Shown piece after piece: positions 22,078-27,531 of a stretch of 64,000 nucleotides of DNA. The stretch's first letter is position 1. Each line of letters opens with the position of its first letter. The DNA is from Sphingomonas panacisoli (GTDB taxonomy: Bacteria > Pseudomonadota > Alphaproteobacteria > Sphingomonadales > Sphingomonadaceae), in contig NZ_CP042306.1 in NCBI RefSeq assembly GCF_007859635.1, positions 2,170,001-2,234,000 of the forward strand, in the 5' to 3' direction. The position numbers and the translations under genes were made by a program. Under the pieces are notes generated by a model that made no database searches, was not told the origin of the DNA, and worked only from the letters and a program-made list of their open reading frames with translations.

Positions 22078-22248
22078 ATGAGCCCCCCTAGCTCCTCCAG
22101 CGCCTCCACAGGTGGTAATCTGCGACAGACCGTCCGCATGCCGCGCGAAAGCGATGGCGTGGGCAACGCGCTTCGCCACATCTTCAACGGTGGAACGACT
22201 CTCCCCGCCGATCTGAAGGCGCTGCTTACCCGCCTCAACGACAGTTAA
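22078..22248 (+). CDS. Small NepR-like protein (possible second anti-sigma factor)
   Basis: This 56-residue protein has a C-terminal half VGNALRHIFNGGTTLPADLK followed by ALLTRLND, which follows the NepR pattern of a G..LR..Y/F helix, a LP/EPLPD turn and a second LL..L helix. NepR proteins clamp EcfG in unstressed cells. It converges on ecfG, and the two stop codons overlap (22245-22248). The canonical nepR is the separate gene at 24340, so this could be a NepR2-type paralogue. The acidic EP(I/V)PD core is degenerate (TTLPADL), leaving the assignment uncertain. Its ribosome binding site is weak. Confidence 0.45.
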   Translation: MSPPSSSSASTGGNLRQTVRMPRESDGVGNALRHIFNGGTTLPADLKALLTRLNDS

Positions 22249-22919
22249 TCGTCGTCTTCGTCCTCGATATCGTCGGGTCGTGGGTGATGGTCGCCGCTCA
22301 GGTCATCGACTTCATCCATGATCGTGTCGAGCGCGGTGCGGCCTTGATTGTCCGGCGCGGTGCGACGTGACGACATGTCACCTCCGCTCAGCAACGCTTC
22401 GAGCGCGACCCGCCCACGCGCAACGCGGCTTTTGATCGTGCCGACCGCGACGTTGCAGATTTCAGCGGCTTCTTCATAGGCGAAGCCACCGGCACCGACG
22501 AGGATCAGCGCCTCACGCTGCGGTTGCGGAAGATGCAGCAGCGCGCGTTGCATATCGCCCAGTTCGACATGCTTATCCTGACTGGCGGGTGCGGCGAGCA
22601 CCCGGTCGGCGACCAGATCGTCCCATTCGCCCTTGAACCGCGCACGGCGCATCTGACTGAGATAGAGATTGCGCAGGATGATGAACGTCCAGGCGCGCAT
22701 GTTGGTGCCGGCCTGGAATCGCTGACGCGCGGCCCACGCCTTCATCAGCGTTTCCTGGACGAGATCGTCGGCGAGATCGCGGCTGCCCGACAGCGAACGG
22801 CCGAACGCGCGCAGGTGCGGAATGACCTGTCCCAATTGCTCTTTGAACTCGGTGTCCGACAGCGCGACGTGCTCGACCGCTTCCCCCTCGTTCATGGCAT
22901 CGCTGTCGATCGTGGTCAT
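22245..22919 (-). CDS. ecfG: EcfG-type RNA polymerase sigma factor of the general stress response
   Basis: Sigma factor of 224 residues. Region 2 contains DLADDLVQETLMKAWAAR and TNMRAWTFIILRNLY; region 4 contains HLPQPQREALILVGAGGFAY and GTIKSRVARGR. These match the ECF15 group that directs the alphaproteobacterial general stress response and recognises GGAAC-N16/17-CGTT promoters. The ATG at 22919 has a CGGAG ribosome binding site. The C-terminal extension (about 30 acidic residues) is typical of sphingomonads. phyR and nepR lie within 2 kb, and two candidate promoters with this motif are present in the locus. Confidence 0.93.
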   Translation of the reverse strand: MTTIDSDAMNEGEAVEHVALSDTEFKEQLGQVIPHLRAFGRSLSGSRDLADDLVQETLMKAWAARQRFQAGTNMRAWTFIILRNLYLSQMRRARFKGEWDDLVADRVLAAPASQDKHVELGDMQRALLHLPQPQREALILVGAGGFAYEEAAEICNVAVGTIKSRVARGRVALEALLSGGDMSSRRTAPDNQGRTALDTIMDEVDDLSGDHHPRPDDIEDEDDD

Positions 22920-22997
22920 GGAACTCCGGGAATGGGCGCGAACGAGCGCCTTACGAAATAGATAGGTTGGCCGCCGCCGCAACCAACTGCATCAAGC

Positions 22998-23330: not shown

Positions 23331-24137
23331 TTAAGCCGGGATCGTGCTCTCGTCGAAGAACAGCGCCTGGCTGATCGCCGCCTTCACCGTCGACCGCTGG
23401 AACGGCTTGGTGATCAGGAAGGTCGGCTCGGGCCGCTCGCCGGTCAGTAGACGCTCCGGGAAGGCGGTGATGAAGATCACCGGCACCTGGAATTCGGCCA
23501 GGATGTCCTTGACCGCGTCGATCCCCGAACTGTCGTCGGCGAGCTGGATATCGGCGAGCACGAGACCCGGCCGCTCGCTCATCGCAGAGGCCACGGCTTC
23601 GTCGCGCGTGACCGCAACGCCGGTCACGTCGTGACCCAGGTCGCGGACGATCGTCTCGATATCCATCGCGATGATCGGCTCGTCCTCGATGATCAGCACC
23701 CGCGCGCGGGTCTGCTTCTCGATCTCGGCCAGCGCCTCCGTCACCAGCGCCTCGACCTCGTCGGCGTCGTGGTCGATCAGGTACCCGGCGTCCTCCGGCG
23801 TGAACCCTTCCATCGCGGTCAGCAGCAGCGCCTGGCGCGACAGCGGCGTCATGCGTGCGAGGCGGGCATTGGCGACCGCCTCCTGCCCTTCCGCCGCCGA
23901 CCCGTCGTCGCTGAGCGCGACTTCGTCGTCGGCATTGGTCGTACGCCAGATGACTTGGAATGTGCGGTACAGTCCCAGCCGCGGCTCGACGTCGCGCGGG
24001 AACTCGTCCGGCGCGGCGACGATCGCTTCCAGCGCGGCGCGGACGTAACGGTCGCCATGTTCCTGGCTTCCGGTCAGCGCGCGGCCGTAGCGACGCAAGA
24101 AAGGCAGGTGAGGTGCAAGCTGCTGACCAAGCGACAT
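23331..24137 (-). CDS. phyR: PhyR, sigma-like response regulator of the general stress response
   Basis: PhyR has 268 residues. Residues 1-135 are a sigma-factor mimic (regions 2 and 4 like EcfG but without DNA-binding residues), and 145-262 form a receiver domain with EDEP at 151-154, the phospho-acceptor D196 in VLADIQL, Thr in FITAFPE and Lys in ITKPFQ. When phosphorylated, PhyR sequesters NepR and frees EcfG. The start at 24137 has a distant GGGGAG. It is divergent from nepR with about 200 nt between, a region that contains a candidate EcfG promoter facing nepR. Confidence 0.94.
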   Translation of the reverse strand: MSLGQQLAPHLPFLRRYGRALTGSQEHGDRYVRAALEAIVAAPDEFPRDVEPRLGLYRTFQVIWRTTNADDEVALSDDGSAAEGQEAVANARLARMTPLSRQALLLTAMEGFTPEDAGYLIDHDADEVEALVTEALAEIEKQTRARVLIIEDEPIIAMDIETIVRDLGHDVTGVAVTRDEAVASAMSERPGLVLADIQLADDSSGIDAVKDILAEFQVPVIFITAFPERLLTGERPEPTFLITKPFQRSTVKAAISQALFFDESTIPA

Positions 24138-24339: not shown

Positions 24340-24507
24340 TTGCCTGATCGGCGGTCATCAAAAGGCGGGACGCCCGGCAACGTTGGCGACAAGAGCAAGA
24401 AGGCAAAGGACGAAGCGATGGGGACCGCGCTGCGCACGGTCTATCATGACGCCGTCAGCGAACCTGTCCCCGACGAAATGCTCGATCTCCTCCGTAAGCT
24501 GGGATAG
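24340..24507 (+). CDS. nepR: NepR, anti-sigma factor for EcfG
   Basis: This 55-residue gene uses a TTG start at 24340 preceded by GGGGG (24329-24333). The basic N-terminus (DKSKKAKDEA) leads to the diagnostic core ALRTVYHDAVSEPVPDEMLD then LLRKLG, the NepR signature of two helices joined by EPVPDE. NepR holds EcfG inactive until phosphorylated PhyR takes it over. No ATG lies in frame before the core except M27, which would remove part of the first helix. The kinase gene starts 4 nt after its stop, so they are one unit. Confidence 0.85.
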   Translation: MPDRRSSKGGTPGNVGDKSKKAKDEAMGTALRTVYHDAVSEPVPDEMLDLLRKLG

Positions 24508-24510
24508 TTC

Positions 24511-26094
24511 GTGGCCAGCCTCACCGCCGGTGAGCGCGCAGGGATGACGATCGGTGCGCGCTTCGGCCGGCTGCAGACCGGGGCGAAGATTTTCCTGATC
24601 CTGCTCGCCGCGCTGCTGCCGTTCGCGATCATCGCGATCCTCGCAACGCTCAGCACCACCCGTCAGGCGAGCATGGAAGCGCAGTCGCAGCTTCGCGTCG
24701 CCGCGCAGGAAAGCTCACGAAACCTGGCGATCGAACTGGTCGGCGATATGGCAGCGCTGACGACGGCGATGAACGCGCTCGCCGCCGATCATGCCGACGC
24801 GCCGAGTTGCGCCCGCGCCCGCGGCGTCTTCGCGCAACAGATCGCCGCCGGCGCCAGCTTCAGCATCATCGATCGCACCGGCCGGATGCTGTGCGGGACA
24901 TCGTCCCCCTACCCCGCCCCCGACGCCATCGCGGGCGGCCAACCGGCAGGGCGAGTCGTTCCCGGCAAGGGCGTCGTGCTATCGATCACGGCGGCCAATG
25001 GTGATTTGCGCGGCAGCGCCTTCTTTCCCGCGCCGTTCCTGACCGACATCGCCAAGCCGACCGTGACCGGCGTCGATTACGCCGAAACGATCCGCGGCGC
25101 TGACGGTCAGGATCTAGCTTTGCGCGCGCTCGATCGCGACAGCCCTTTGGATAGTCATCAGGCCGTCAACGCGCCGCTGAATGTCGGCAATCTGACCCTC
25201 AACGTCAGCATGCGGCGCAACCTGATAACATCGCCGATCCTGATCGCGATGCTGCTGCCGATCCTGATGTGGCTCGCGGCGGCGAGCATCGCCTGGTTCG
25301 TGGTCGATCGACTGCTGATCCAGCCGCTGCGTACCCTGCGCGCGCGTGTCGCGGCATATCGCCCGGGCGAAGCGATCGATTCGGCCGACGTCCGCTCGCT
25401 CCCCGCGCAGGAGATTCGGGAGCTCGGCGAGACGTTTCGGTCGCTCAGCCGGACGCTGATTCTGCACGAGGCCGGGCTCGCCGAGGGCCTCGTGCGCCAG
25501 ACCAAGCTGACGCGCGAGGTGCATCACCGCGTCAAGAACAACCTTCAGGTCATTTCCAGCCTGATCAACCTGCATTCGCGCGGTGCGGAGGCGGCGGAAG
25601 CGGCGCGCGCCTATTCGTCGATCCAGCGCCGTGTCGATGCGCTGTCGGTCGTGCATCGTCACCATTTCGCGGAAATGGAAGATCATCGCGGCCTGTCGCT
25701 GCGCGCGGTGATCGGCGAACTCGCCTCCAACATCCGCGCGACCAGCCCGGAGGCGTCGAAGCTCGGCATCCAGCTCGAGATCGAGCCCTATCTGGTGAGC
25801 CAGGATACGGCGATTGCGATCGCGTTCCTGCTGACCGAAATCATCGAACTGGCGATCAGCATTTCGCCCGGCGCGCAGTTCCGCTTGTCCGTGCGGGCCG
25901 GCGAAACGCCCGCATCGGCGATCTTGCGCGCGAGTTCGCCAGCGCTTGCCGACAGCGACGCATTGAAGGCAGCGCTCGGCCAGCGCTATGGCCGCGTGAT
26001 GGAAGGATTGTCGCGGCAACTCCGATCGCCGCTGCACCACGATCCCCTGGCAGGATCCTACGAAATCGCCGTCGCGGTCACCGGAAAAGACTGA
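24511..26094 (+). CDS. PhyP-like membrane sensor kinase of the HisKA_2 family
   Basis: This 527-residue protein has a transmembrane helix (IFLILLAALLPFAIIAIL, about residues 27-45), a periplasmic sensor domain to about 240, a second helix (about 241-265), and a HAMP-like linker. The HisKA_2 box EVHHRVKNNLQVISS has H338-H339, of which H339 is the likely phospho-site. The ATPase region is degenerate: the N-box is replaced by TEIIELAISI, and no DxG G1 box or glycine-rich G2 box is seen. In Sphingomonas melonis Fr1 a kinase beside phyR, PhyP, acts as a negative regulator or phosphatase of PhyR; this protein fits that by position and by its missing ATP site. An ATG at 24544 is an alternative start. 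Confidence 0.8.
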   Translation: MASLTAGERAGMTIGARFGRLQTGAKIFLILLAALLPFAIIAILATLSTTRQASMEAQSQLRVAAQESSRNLAIELVGDMAALTTAMNALAADHADAPSCARARGVFAQQIAAGASFSIIDRTGRMLCGTSSPYPAPDAIAGGQPAGRVVPGKGVVLSITAANGDLRGSAFFPAPFLTDIAKPTVTGVDYAETIRGADGQDLALRALDRDSPLDSHQAVNAPLNVGNLTLNVSMRRNLITSPILIAMLLPILMWLAAASIAWFVVDRLLIQPLRTLRARVAAYRPGEAIDSADVRSLPAQEIRELGETFRSLSRTLILHEAGLAEGLVRQTKLTREVHHRVKNNLQVISSLINLHSRGAEAAEAARAYSSIQRRVDALSVVHRHHFAEMEDHRGLSLRAVIGELASNIRATSPEASKLGIQLEIEPYLVSQDTAIAIAFLLTEIIELAISISPGAQFRLSVRAGETPASAILRASSPALADSDALKAALGQRYGRVMEGLSRQLRSPLHHDPLAGSYEIAVAVTGKD

Positions 26095-26148
26095 AAATCC
26101 GCGAAAAACCCGGCTGCGAAAAAAAATTCGAAAAATGCGATTTCTTTT

Positions 26149-26173
26149 GGAACCCGATCGCACCAAGCGCGTT
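26149..26173 (+). promoter_or_regulatory. Consensus EcfG promoter (GGAAC-N16-CGTT)
   Basis: GGAAC at 26149-26153, a 16-nt spacer and CGTT at 26170-26173 match the EcfG consensus exactly. It points into a gene-free interval ending at the hairpin at 26225-26272, 55 nt after the kinase stop. No coding region follows on this strand, so it probably drives a small RNA. Confidence 0.7.
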
Positions 26174-26179
26174 TTCATC

Positions 26180-26280
26180 TTCGGATAGCGACCTTATGCC
26201 CCCCCGCTCTCGCTATCCATGACATAGGCCCGGAAGCGTCAACCCCTCCCCCCGGTGACGCTTCCGGGCCTAAATTCTTT
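26180..26280 (+). ncRNA. Candidate EcfG-regulated small RNA with C-rich loops
   Basis: Predicted from the promoter at 26149, transcription would begin near 26180. The 5' end folds as a perfect 9-bp stem (GGATAGCGA 26183-26191 with TCGCTATCC 26210-26218) whose 18-nt loop contains seven consecutive C (26199-26205). The 3' end is a 17-bp stem (26225-26241 with 26256-26272) whose 14-nt loop reads ACCCCTCCCCCCGG and contains the anti-Shine-Dalgarno string CCTCC. Caulobacter GsrN, an sRNA controlled by the equivalent sigma factor, also uses a C-rich 5' loop to bind mRNA. The similarity is in design rather than proven homology, and the ends are estimates. Confidence 0.5.
26225..26272. terminator. 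Perfect 17-bp hairpin between the kinase/sRNA and tatC
   Basis: The arms 26225-26241 and 26256-26272 are exact reverse complements (core GGCCCGGAAGCGTC). An AT-rich stretch TAAATTCTTT follows on the plus strand. It can end the upstream plus-strand transcript and the tatABC transcript from the other side, and would be the 3' end of the candidate sRNA. Confidence 0.75.
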
Positions 26281-26306
26281 CCGGGACTTGTGAAATCGGC
26301 AGGTAA

Positions 26307-27083
26307 TCAGGCGGCGGTTTCTTCCGCTTCCACAGCCTTTGCACGCCGACGATGCGTCAGCCAGATCACGCCCAGCGTCAGGAAGTAAAGCCCGACCAGC
26401 GGCGCCGCGAGCATCACCATCGACCCGGCGTCGGGCGGCGCCAGCACCAGCGCGATCGCGAAACAGCCGAGGATCGCATAGCGCCATGCGCGCGCCAATT
26501 GCCCCAGCGTCACGATCCCGGCCCGTTCCAGCAGCATCATCAGGATCGGCAGCAGGAACGACACGCCGAACCCGAACAGAAACTGCATGACGAAGGTCAG
26601 GTAATTGCCGACGCGCGGCAACGCTTCCTGCTGCACGTCGCCGACCTTGGTCTGGTAGCCGAGCAGGAAATGCACCGCGGCGGGGATCGCGACGTAATAG
26701 GCCATCGCACAGCCCGCCGTGAACAGGATGGGCGTCGCCAGCAGGAACGGCAACAGCGCGCGCTTTTCCTTGCGGTACAGGCCGGGTGCGACGAACTGCC
26801 ACAGCTGATTGGCGACAACGGGGAACGACAGCACGGTCGCCGCGAAGAACGCGACCTTGAGCTGGACGAAGAACGCTTCGAACAGCTCGGTATAATAGAC
26901 CTTCTTCTCGCCCGCCTTGGCGAGCGGCTCGATCAGGAAGCCGAAGATCGGCTCGGCGAAGTAAAGGCAGATACCGAACAGCACCGCGAGCGTCGCGAAG
27001 CTGATGAGCAGCCGTTTGCGCAACTCGATCAGATGCTCGAGCAACGGCGCGCGGCTGGCGTCGATTTCGTCGTCGTCGCTCAT
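26307..27083 (-). CDS. tatC: Sec-independent protein translocase TatC
   Basis: This 258-residue polytopic protein has six transmembrane helices and forms the receptor core of the twin-arginine translocon. The cytoplasmic N-terminus contains LLEHLIELRKRLL, and the family motifs FVAPGLYRKEKR and the F-P-x-x-x-NQLW element (FPVVANQLW) are present. The C-terminus is RRAKAVEAEETAA. The start at 27083 lies 5 nt after the tatB stop; a longer upstream frame inside tatB was rejected. Twin-arginine cargo in this window includes the DUF1501 protein at 32922. Confidence 0.95.
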   Translation of the reverse strand: MSDDDEIDASRAPLLEHLIELRKRLLISFATLAVLFGICLYFAEPIFGFLIEPLAKAGEKKVYYTELFEAFFVQLKVAFFAATVLSFPVVANQLWQFVAPGLYRKEKRALLPFLLATPILFTAGCAMAYYVAIPAAVHFLLGYQTKVGDVQQEALPRVGNYLTFVMQFLFGFGVSFLLPILMMLLERAGIVTLGQLARAWRYAILGCFAIALVLAPPDAGSMVMLAAPLVGLYFLTLGVIWLTHRRRAKAVEAEETAA

Positions 27084-27087
27084 CGCG

Positions 27088-27531
27088 TCACGGCTTTGCC
27101 CGTTTGGCGGCGGGCTTCTTCGCTGTCGGTTTCCTGGCGGCCGCGGCACGCGGCTTGGCGGGTGTTTTGCGCTTAGGGGCGGGCGTAGCCTCGACCGGCG
27201 CCATCTCCGTCGTCATCGCCAGTGCATCCTCGCTCTCGGGCGTGGAATCGTCTTGCGGCACCGGCGCCATCAGCATCGCCTGATCGGGCGTCGCGGGGAA
27301 TTCGCGCATGATGCGCTCGTTCTCCGCCTTCCATTTCTTTTCCATCTCCTGGAATTCTGATTCGCGGATCATGTCGTCGAAGCCCGAGCGGAATTGCCGC
27401 GCCATGCCGCGCGCGCGCCCGATCCACTGCCCGGCGAGACGCATCGCCTTGGGCAGATCCTTGGGCGGGATGACGACCAGCGCCACCGCACCCAGCACCA
27501 GCAATTCGGTGGGGGCAATATCGAAGATCAC
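27088..27531 (-). CDS. tatB: Sec-independent protein translocase subunit TatB
   Basis: TatB (147 residues) recognises twin-arginine precursors together with TatC. It opens MIFDIAPTELLVLGAVALVV, with the glutamate and short membrane helix of the family, then PPKDLPKAMRLAGQWIGRAR, an amphipathic helix. The C-terminal third is a Pro/Ala/Lys-rich tail (KRKTPAKPRAAAARKPTAKK), basic and presumably disordered. It lies 24 nt after tatA and just before tatC. Confidence 0.93.
   Translation of the reverse strand: MIFDIAPTELLVLGAVALVVIPPKDLPKAMRLAGQWIGRARGMARQFRSGFDDMIRESEFQEMEKKWKAENERIMREFPATPDQAMLMAPVPQDDSTPESEDALAMTTEMAPVEATPAPKRKTPAKPRAAAARKPTAKKPAAKRAKP

Follow-up and report, generated by a model that had tools for sequence, protein, structure and literature searches.

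The closest described RNA to the one reported here is GsrN of Caulobacter, which is made under sigma-T as a molecule of about 100 nt, is processed by cleavage into a stable 5′ isoform 51–54 nt in length and is stabilised by Hfq (PMC5869019). Its C-rich 5′ loop pairs with the G-rich start of the katG mRNA, raising KatG, and this pairing has been supported by swaps of both loop and target (PMC5869019). In the same work, gsrN homologues are positioned beside genes of the general stress response (GSR) and GsrN-like RNAs are proposed for the Rhizobiaceae (PMC5869019).

The sphingomonad GSR has so far been worked out at the protein level. None of six sRNA terms occurs in the main text of the S. melonis Fr1 EcfG regulon paper (PMC6599016), and in that of the S. 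granuli EcfG paper one of the six occurs once, in a reference title (PMC7083833); in the text of a review on ECF factors, sRNA is mentioned only for RpoE (PMC8103513). SuhB of Sphingopyxis granuli, known by title (PMC7083833), is a sphingomonad sRNA named for catabolite repression of the tetralin genes. A search of PMC by title and start of abstract gave, among the papers listed, no published description of the RNA presented below; its gene has apparently been overlooked so far and may figure as an unnamed transcript in some table, for instance of a supplement, a subscription paper or a Zymomonas sRNA paper.

The phyT-tatC interval

The DNA analysed is a 64-kb stretch from Sphingomonas panacisoli, called here the window. 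The features of the GSR locus and of the adjoining interval are the following:

22245..22982, − strand: ecfG, general stress sigma factor, start codon uncertain (Pfam Sigma70_r2, Sigma70_r4_2 and PhyR_sigma2)
23331..24137, − strand: phyR, response regulator and anti-anti-sigma factor (Pfam PhyR_sigma2, PhyR_sigma-like and Response_reg)
24340..24507, + strand: nepR, anti-sigma factor (Pfam NepR, 40 bits)
24511..26094, + strand: phyT (formerly phyP) homologue, upstream neighbour of the RNA (Pfam HisKA_2/HWE_HK match)
26130..26135, + strand: tract rich in A that precedes the −35 box and may be an UP-like element
26149..26173, + strand: EcfG-type promoter, exact match to GGAAC-N16-CGTT (GGAAC at 26149-26153, CGTT at 26170-26173)
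26181..26278, + strand: putative small RNA gene, with a 5′ end predicted at about 26180-26182 from the spacing to the −10 box and a 3′ end at about 26275-26282 from the T-rich tail
26183..26218, + strand: hairpin 1, nine perfect pairs, loop CCTTATGCCCCCCCGCTC (26192-26209) with seven C at 26199-26205
26225..26272, + strand: hairpin 2, 17 perfect pairs, loop ACCCCTCCCCCCGG (26242-26255)
26307..27084, − strand: tatC, convergent downstream neighbour (Pfam TatC, 230.6 bits; longer frame 26307-27149)

The promoter and both hairpins lie between the stop of phyT (26094) and that of tatC on the opposite strand (26307). What the initial annotation had described here, namely an exact EcfG-type promoter directed into a gene-free stretch, a perfect 9-bp stem capped by a loop with seven consecutive C, and a perfect 17-bp stem with a C-rich loop at the end of the RNA, can be read directly at 26149-26173, 26183-26218 and 26225-26272. 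Its naming of the adjacent gene as a kinase did not hold: the product of 24511-26094 matches HisKA_2 and HWE_HK, and since no ATPase domain appears among its Pfam matches with E up to 0.001, it would be better called PhyT. In this it fits PhyT (formerly PhyP) from the S. melonis phyR locus, whose ATPase domain is described as degenerate (PMC5898713).

The predicted RNA is about 95–100 nt long. Stem 1 is formed by GGATAGCGA (26183-26191) and TCGCTATCC (26210-26218), and stem 2 by TAGGCCCGGAAGCGTCA (26225-26241) and TGACGCTTCCGGGCCTA (26256-26272). The 95 bases from 26181 to 26275 fold with −51.2 kcal/mol (z −9.31), a value reached by none of 200 shuffles. Hairpin 2 probably serves also as terminator stem; the tail that follows it is T-rich with interruptions (AAATTCTTT), and across 52 members of the family defined below T makes up 53% of nine columns after the stem. 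A simple scan for terminators, allowing loops of 3–8 bases only, gave none in this region, and a similarly simple scan of the phyT-tatC interval gave no sigma-70 promoter. The short reading frame ATG ACA TAG inside the RNA was discarded, its ATG being absent from the other 29 aligned loci.

Conservation of the promoter and its surroundings

A promoter match in a single sequence proves little, because the pattern, with N16 or N17, occurs once in the window against 1.16 times expected in shuffled windows; as stand-alone evidence the match was rejected, and its significance comes from conservation. The hairpin-1 pattern alone yielded at least 120 stretches in named genomes, of which 80 were analysed, with the promoter and hairpin 2 outside the selection. 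These loci belong to Sphingomonas, Stakelama, Hephaestia, Sphingomicrobium, Sphingosinicella, Allosphingosinicella and metagenome-assembled genomes. The initial annotation had named loss of the promoter in close relatives as a ground for giving up its proposal. GGAAC-N15..18-(C/T)GTT was found 33–39 bases before the stem in 78 of the 80 loci, 57 of which carry the strict N16-CGTT form at 35–37 bases, and in both exceptions the −10 box reads CATT. None of 3830 control windows placed 60–400 bases further upstream, many of them inside phyT, contained the pattern. A second set of 52 diverse loci, on which the R2 model described below was built, gave the pattern in 43 and a near form in the other nine.

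Information along 79 loci is concentrated in the promoter boxes (1.33–2.0 bits), the spacer having 0.04–0.52 bits and the base after GGAAC 0.96. Upstream of the −35 box the columns mostly carry 0–0.4 bits, apart from those of the A-rich tract, columns −54 to −49 before hairpin 1, with 0.52–0.94 bits and an A in 43–60 of the 79 loci.

The surroundings of the hairpin-1-chosen loci are also recurrent. Of the loci with enough sequence, 69 of 74 had phyT on the same strand less than 700 bases upstream, and 54 of 61 a convergent tatC less than 2500 bases downstream. Distances between the RNA and tatC range from 16 to 2210 bases. In some genera (e.g. L063, L065 and L072) the RNA stands beside Tat genes with the GSR genes unmatched within the stretch examined.

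Of 201 genomes of the genus, 198 have a match to the 212-base intergenic DNA, among them all 180 good ones (completeness 90% or more, contamination 5% or less), and the three genomes with no match are drafts of 78–84% completeness. In an alignment of the best 30 genus loci the body of the RNA is nearly fixed, as is the −10 box, and GGAAC is fixed, with spacer and flanks much freer.

A second hairpin, of at least 12 pairs and with a C-rich loop, follows in all 77 hairpin-1-chosen loci with 90 bases of sequence. Among 52 diverse members the columns of loop 1 carry 1.70 bits on average and those of loop 2 1.51; stem 1 has 1.60, stem 2 has 1.06, and lead, linker and tail have 0.63–0.75. Loop 1 is thus the segment highest in information among those measured, above either stem, as expected of a pairing site. 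The C-rich loops, whose conservation had been left to be checked, persist: six or more C in a row in loop 1, and five or more in loop 2, are each present in 51 of the 52, figures that lean towards conservation since the model used to find these members includes the loops. Loop 1 includes TGCCCCCCCGCT in 37 of the 52, and loop 2 stays C-rich with varying length.

Taken together, promoter, loops, stems and strand agree with the EcfG-driven sRNA with two C-rich loops that had been proposed for this phyR-nepR locus, and RNA, strand, fold, promoter and neighbourhood are supported at the sequence level. That the + strand holds a real, conserved RNA gene controlled by EcfG is very likely, and its product very probably works as a stress regulator in sphingomonads; transcription and dependence on EcfG are what the conserved promoter predicts.

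Distribution in the family

Two covariance models were built, R1 from 29 genus members and R2 from 52 diverse members. R2 matches the window at 26178-26280 with 114.7 bits, the window sequence being part of the model. R1 finds the RNA in 98 of 298 family genomes (36 of 96 genera) and R2, with E up to 0.01, in 127 of 298 (49 of 96 genera). The latter is an upper figure because, among 27 matches in 25 stretches checked for being new, weak or second finds, nine have an exact promoter under the relaxed pattern, five a near one and 13 none, and ten of these 13 score at most 32 bits and were taken for chance or terminator-like hairpins. The three others, at 36.6–43.4 bits, are uncertain, and one of them (L235) has a GGAGC/CGTT pair just outside the promoter pattern. 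At 41.9 bits or more, a cut set by us with the genera partly inspected by eye, R2 covers 37 of 96 genera. One of the nine with an exact promoter, a weak match of 21.7 bits (L225:9201-9315, − strand), adjoins ecfG; it was excluded from the members.

Second copies with at least 33 bits are present elsewhere in five genomes (L088, L226, L235, L236 and L238). In the first four the loop GCCCCCC...GCTC is carried by other stem sequences, and in L238 the C-run stands in a different setting. Their promoters are exact in L088, L226 and L238, near in L236 and of the GGAGC variant in L235. Neither phyT nor Tat matches were found around the second copies of L088, L235, L236 and L238; in L226 a weak match resembling PhyT lies at a distance of 2.7 kb. 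A loop kept on replaced stems is what would be expected if the loop does the work.

In a comparison of 99 genomes, 11 of which were left out for a partial or absent PhyR match, R2 reaches 41.9 bits or more in 35 of 40 family genomes with a full-length PhyR at least 60% identical to that of the window, and in 1 of 48 whose best PhyR is 53–59% identical. Twenty RNA-negative family genomes showed no comparable C-loop RNA behind an exact promoter in the 10 kb around phyR, nor did tatC stretches of 6 kb from 16 of those genomes and four further ones; exact EcfG promoters precede phyR and other genes in the RNA-negative genomes.

Against the proposal stands one relative that keeps the locus. G229 has a PhyR 82% identical and the same phyR-phyT-tatC order, and no match above 10.4 bits was obtained in it with filters off. 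Hence the RNA can be lost, and the system can do without it. G276 and G223, from genera in which other members have the RNA, likewise gave no match with filters off in the stretches examined. In the stretch of G229 concerned (L382, G229:C30:88000-98000) the ecfG-phyR-phyT and tat genes are intact and ordered as elsewhere, with no such RNA between phyT and tatC; a near EcfG-type promoter, GGAAC-N16-GGTT, lies there ahead of an ATG.

Beyond the family, R1 gave two matches in a class sample of 289 genomes, both in the own genus, and R2 four in 190 class genomes, two in the own genus and no credible others, both searches having been run with strict filters that lose weak matches. The two remaining R2 matches, at 35.7 bits with no EcfG promoter in the upstream stretch and at 24.2 bits, were taken as noise. 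A class-wide pattern of EcfG promoter plus C6 occurred at 33 places in 22 of 190 genomes against 43 in a reversed control and was not useful. One place in the own genome (L316, C1:1109482), where an EcfG-type promoter precedes a protein frame whose leader contains C6, perhaps marks another EcfG-regulated gene.

Relationship to GsrN and other RNAs

At the gathering score no Rfam family was found in the window or in six relatives, and weak matches appeared only at a lax threshold. ar14 is an alphaproteobacterial sRNA with C-rich anti-Shine-Dalgarno loops. Its model (RF02344) gave the top weak match on the + strand, with 16.7 bits against a cutoff of 58.8. CcsR1-type RNAs depend on heat-shock sigma factors, whereas the promoter here is of the EcfG type. 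By its Rfam description, CcsR1 (RF02791), the conserved CCUCCUCCC motif stress-induced RNA 1, shares with the present RNA a C-rich motif and a link to stress; its score here is 13 bits against a cutoff of 65.3.

The RNA resembles GsrN in several respects: (i) an EcfG/sigma-T type promoter lies directly upstream; (ii) the predicted length is about 100 nt; (iii) a 5′ hairpin exposes a C-rich loop, with six C in GsrN and seven here; and (iv) the gene is typically close to GSR regulator genes. It differs from GsrN in having two C-rich hairpin loops and in its usual place between phyT and tatC. Unlike GsrN, moreover, its loop has no complementarity to katG leaders above that of shuffled loops: in 30 genus loci the mean longest complement is 5.3 nt against 5.5, the single best being 8 nt, with starts chosen by rule and one leader incomplete. 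The likeness to GsrN drawn in the initial annotation is one of architecture and neighbourhood.

The RNA could be a strongly diverged true orthologue of GsrN, descended from an ancestor of Caulobacteraceae and Sphingomonadaceae, a descent that would be compatible with the explanation we favour. The same class of sigma factor, the C-rich loop of the 5′ hairpin, the similar length and the position beside GSR genes would all suit it (PMC5869019). However, run with strict filters, our models gave no credible match outside the family in the 289 and 190 class genomes, and no such RNA stood behind an exact promoter near the GSR or tatC loci of the 20 RNA-negative family genomes. Erythrobacter litoralis belongs to the same order as the sphingomonads. 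It was an outgroup in the GsrN work, which reports no apparent gsrN-like gene in it (PMC5869019); the RNA-negative family genomes agree with this, and the RNA described here bears on the gap so left. We regard orthology as rather unlikely. No kinship was detected with the R1 and R2 models, and the RNA is treated as a new family and not filed as GsrN, because homology to GsrN is at most putative and the katG feature is missing.

More tentatively, we suggest a core sRNA of the GSR with an origin separate from that of GsrN; its working part would be a portable C7 loop, and loop 2 would hold a second mRNA or strengthen the interaction. The portable loop is suggested because it is kept where its stems are replaced and because extra copies carry it on other stems. 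If an independent origin is true, the stress response of alphaproteobacteria would have arrived more than once at EcfG-driven C-loop sRNAs as an output.

Proposed mode of action

We propose that the RNA acts in trans within the EcfG regulon, its C-rich loops pairing with G-rich stretches of mRNAs, and as an account of the whole we hold this to be likely; action by C-loop pairing with mRNA, as in GsrN, is probable by analogy. In the model, stress frees EcfG from NepR, and EcfG would then start transcription near 26181. The short 5′ hairpin of the RNA would display the almost invariant loop UGCCCCCCCGCUC, and the long GC-rich 3′ hairpin, which probably aids termination, a second and looser C-rich loop. 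The loops would pair with G-rich mRNA stretches, those at ribosome-binding sites or close to them being the likeliest, and the pairing would alter translation or stability of the mRNA, probably with Hfq. Repression at ribosome-binding sites would be the commonest outcome to be expected. Inferred in this model are expression during stress, the binding of Hfq, the pairing itself, its targets and whether they are repressed or activated.

If true, an EcfG-driven RNA beside phyT would add a post-transcriptional arm to the sphingomonad stress response, and if the RNA blocks ribosome-binding sites this would be a repressing arm, beyond the reach of the sigma factor alone.

Hfq is encoded in all 21 genus genomes sampled. 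In the own genome (L381, C1:1676305-1676736, − strand) two Hfq matches fall in one open frame of 191 aa, and a double match in a single frame recurs in 20 of the 21. A double-domain Hfq occurs also in Zymomonas.

Among candidate targets, the start regions of ecfG, phyR, nepR, phyT, tatA-C and scpA-B from relatives departed from shuffled loops by no more than about 0.4 nt, in either direction. Perfect 10-nt complements of the loop occur at four other places in the own genome against three for the reversed control. One perfect 10-nt complement of the C7 loop (L319, match 1501, − strand) ends 36 bases upstream of an ATG; the site may itself lie in a hairpin, and the product, beginning MRRVVVTG, is one which we take to be FabF-like.

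That the complementarity searches gave no target would also suit an RNA that is real and EcfG-driven but binds a protein, be it Hfq, a cold-shock-type protein or another C-binding one, instead of mRNA; loop 2, variable in length yet C-rich, would make a suitably loose site. However, the sequence of loop 1 hardly varies, with TGCCCCCCCGCT in 37 of the 52 members, which goes beyond a preference for C, and GsrN acts by pairing (PMC5869019). Protein binding in place of pairing is accordingly improbable in our judgement, and pairing of the loops with mRNA is the reading we retain.

Covariation of the stems and the strand under selection

The stems covary, as a check proposed at the outset had sought. 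In the alignment of the 52 members, paired cells make up 96.5%, and 27 of the 29 pairs have double changes (187 cells). None of 500 shuffles reaches any of five measures of structure, and sliding the partners lowers the paired fraction to 33–41%. In stem 1, 99.4% of cells are paired and all nine pairs show double changes, as do all 18 model pairs of stem 2; the inner helix of loop 1, of 2 bp, has none. The alignment was fitted to the covariance model and so leans towards structure, although we do not think that such fitting alone yields so many double changes.

A G-U pair is stable only on the + strand, the opposite strand reading A-C. In stem 1 and the outer eight pairs of stem 2, which are well aligned, G-U cells outnumber A-C cells by 34 to 3, and across all pairs by 51 to 18. 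Since G-U is stable on that strand only, it seems to be the + strand RNA that is under selection, in agreement with the direction of the promoter.

This asymmetry weighs against regarding the element as nothing more than a bidirectional terminator and spacer between the convergent phyT and tatC. The position between convergent genes would suit a terminator, as would the strong GC-rich hairpin of stem 2 followed by a T-rich tail. However, a terminator needs neither the near-invariant loop of hairpin 1 nor an EcfG promoter at fixed spacing, as found in 78 of the 80 loci; four of the five second copies have no phyT or Tat matches around them, and the distance to tatC varies from 16 to 2210 bases. 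We consider this explanation highly improbable.

More improbable still is a functional RNA on the − strand, displaying G-rich loops in the 3′ end of the tatC mRNA, for in spite of a good fold (z −5.47) and a weak RsmW-like match (23.1 bits, cutoff 52) the G-U excess favours the + strand, the conserved promoter points the opposite way and some members lie far from tatC.
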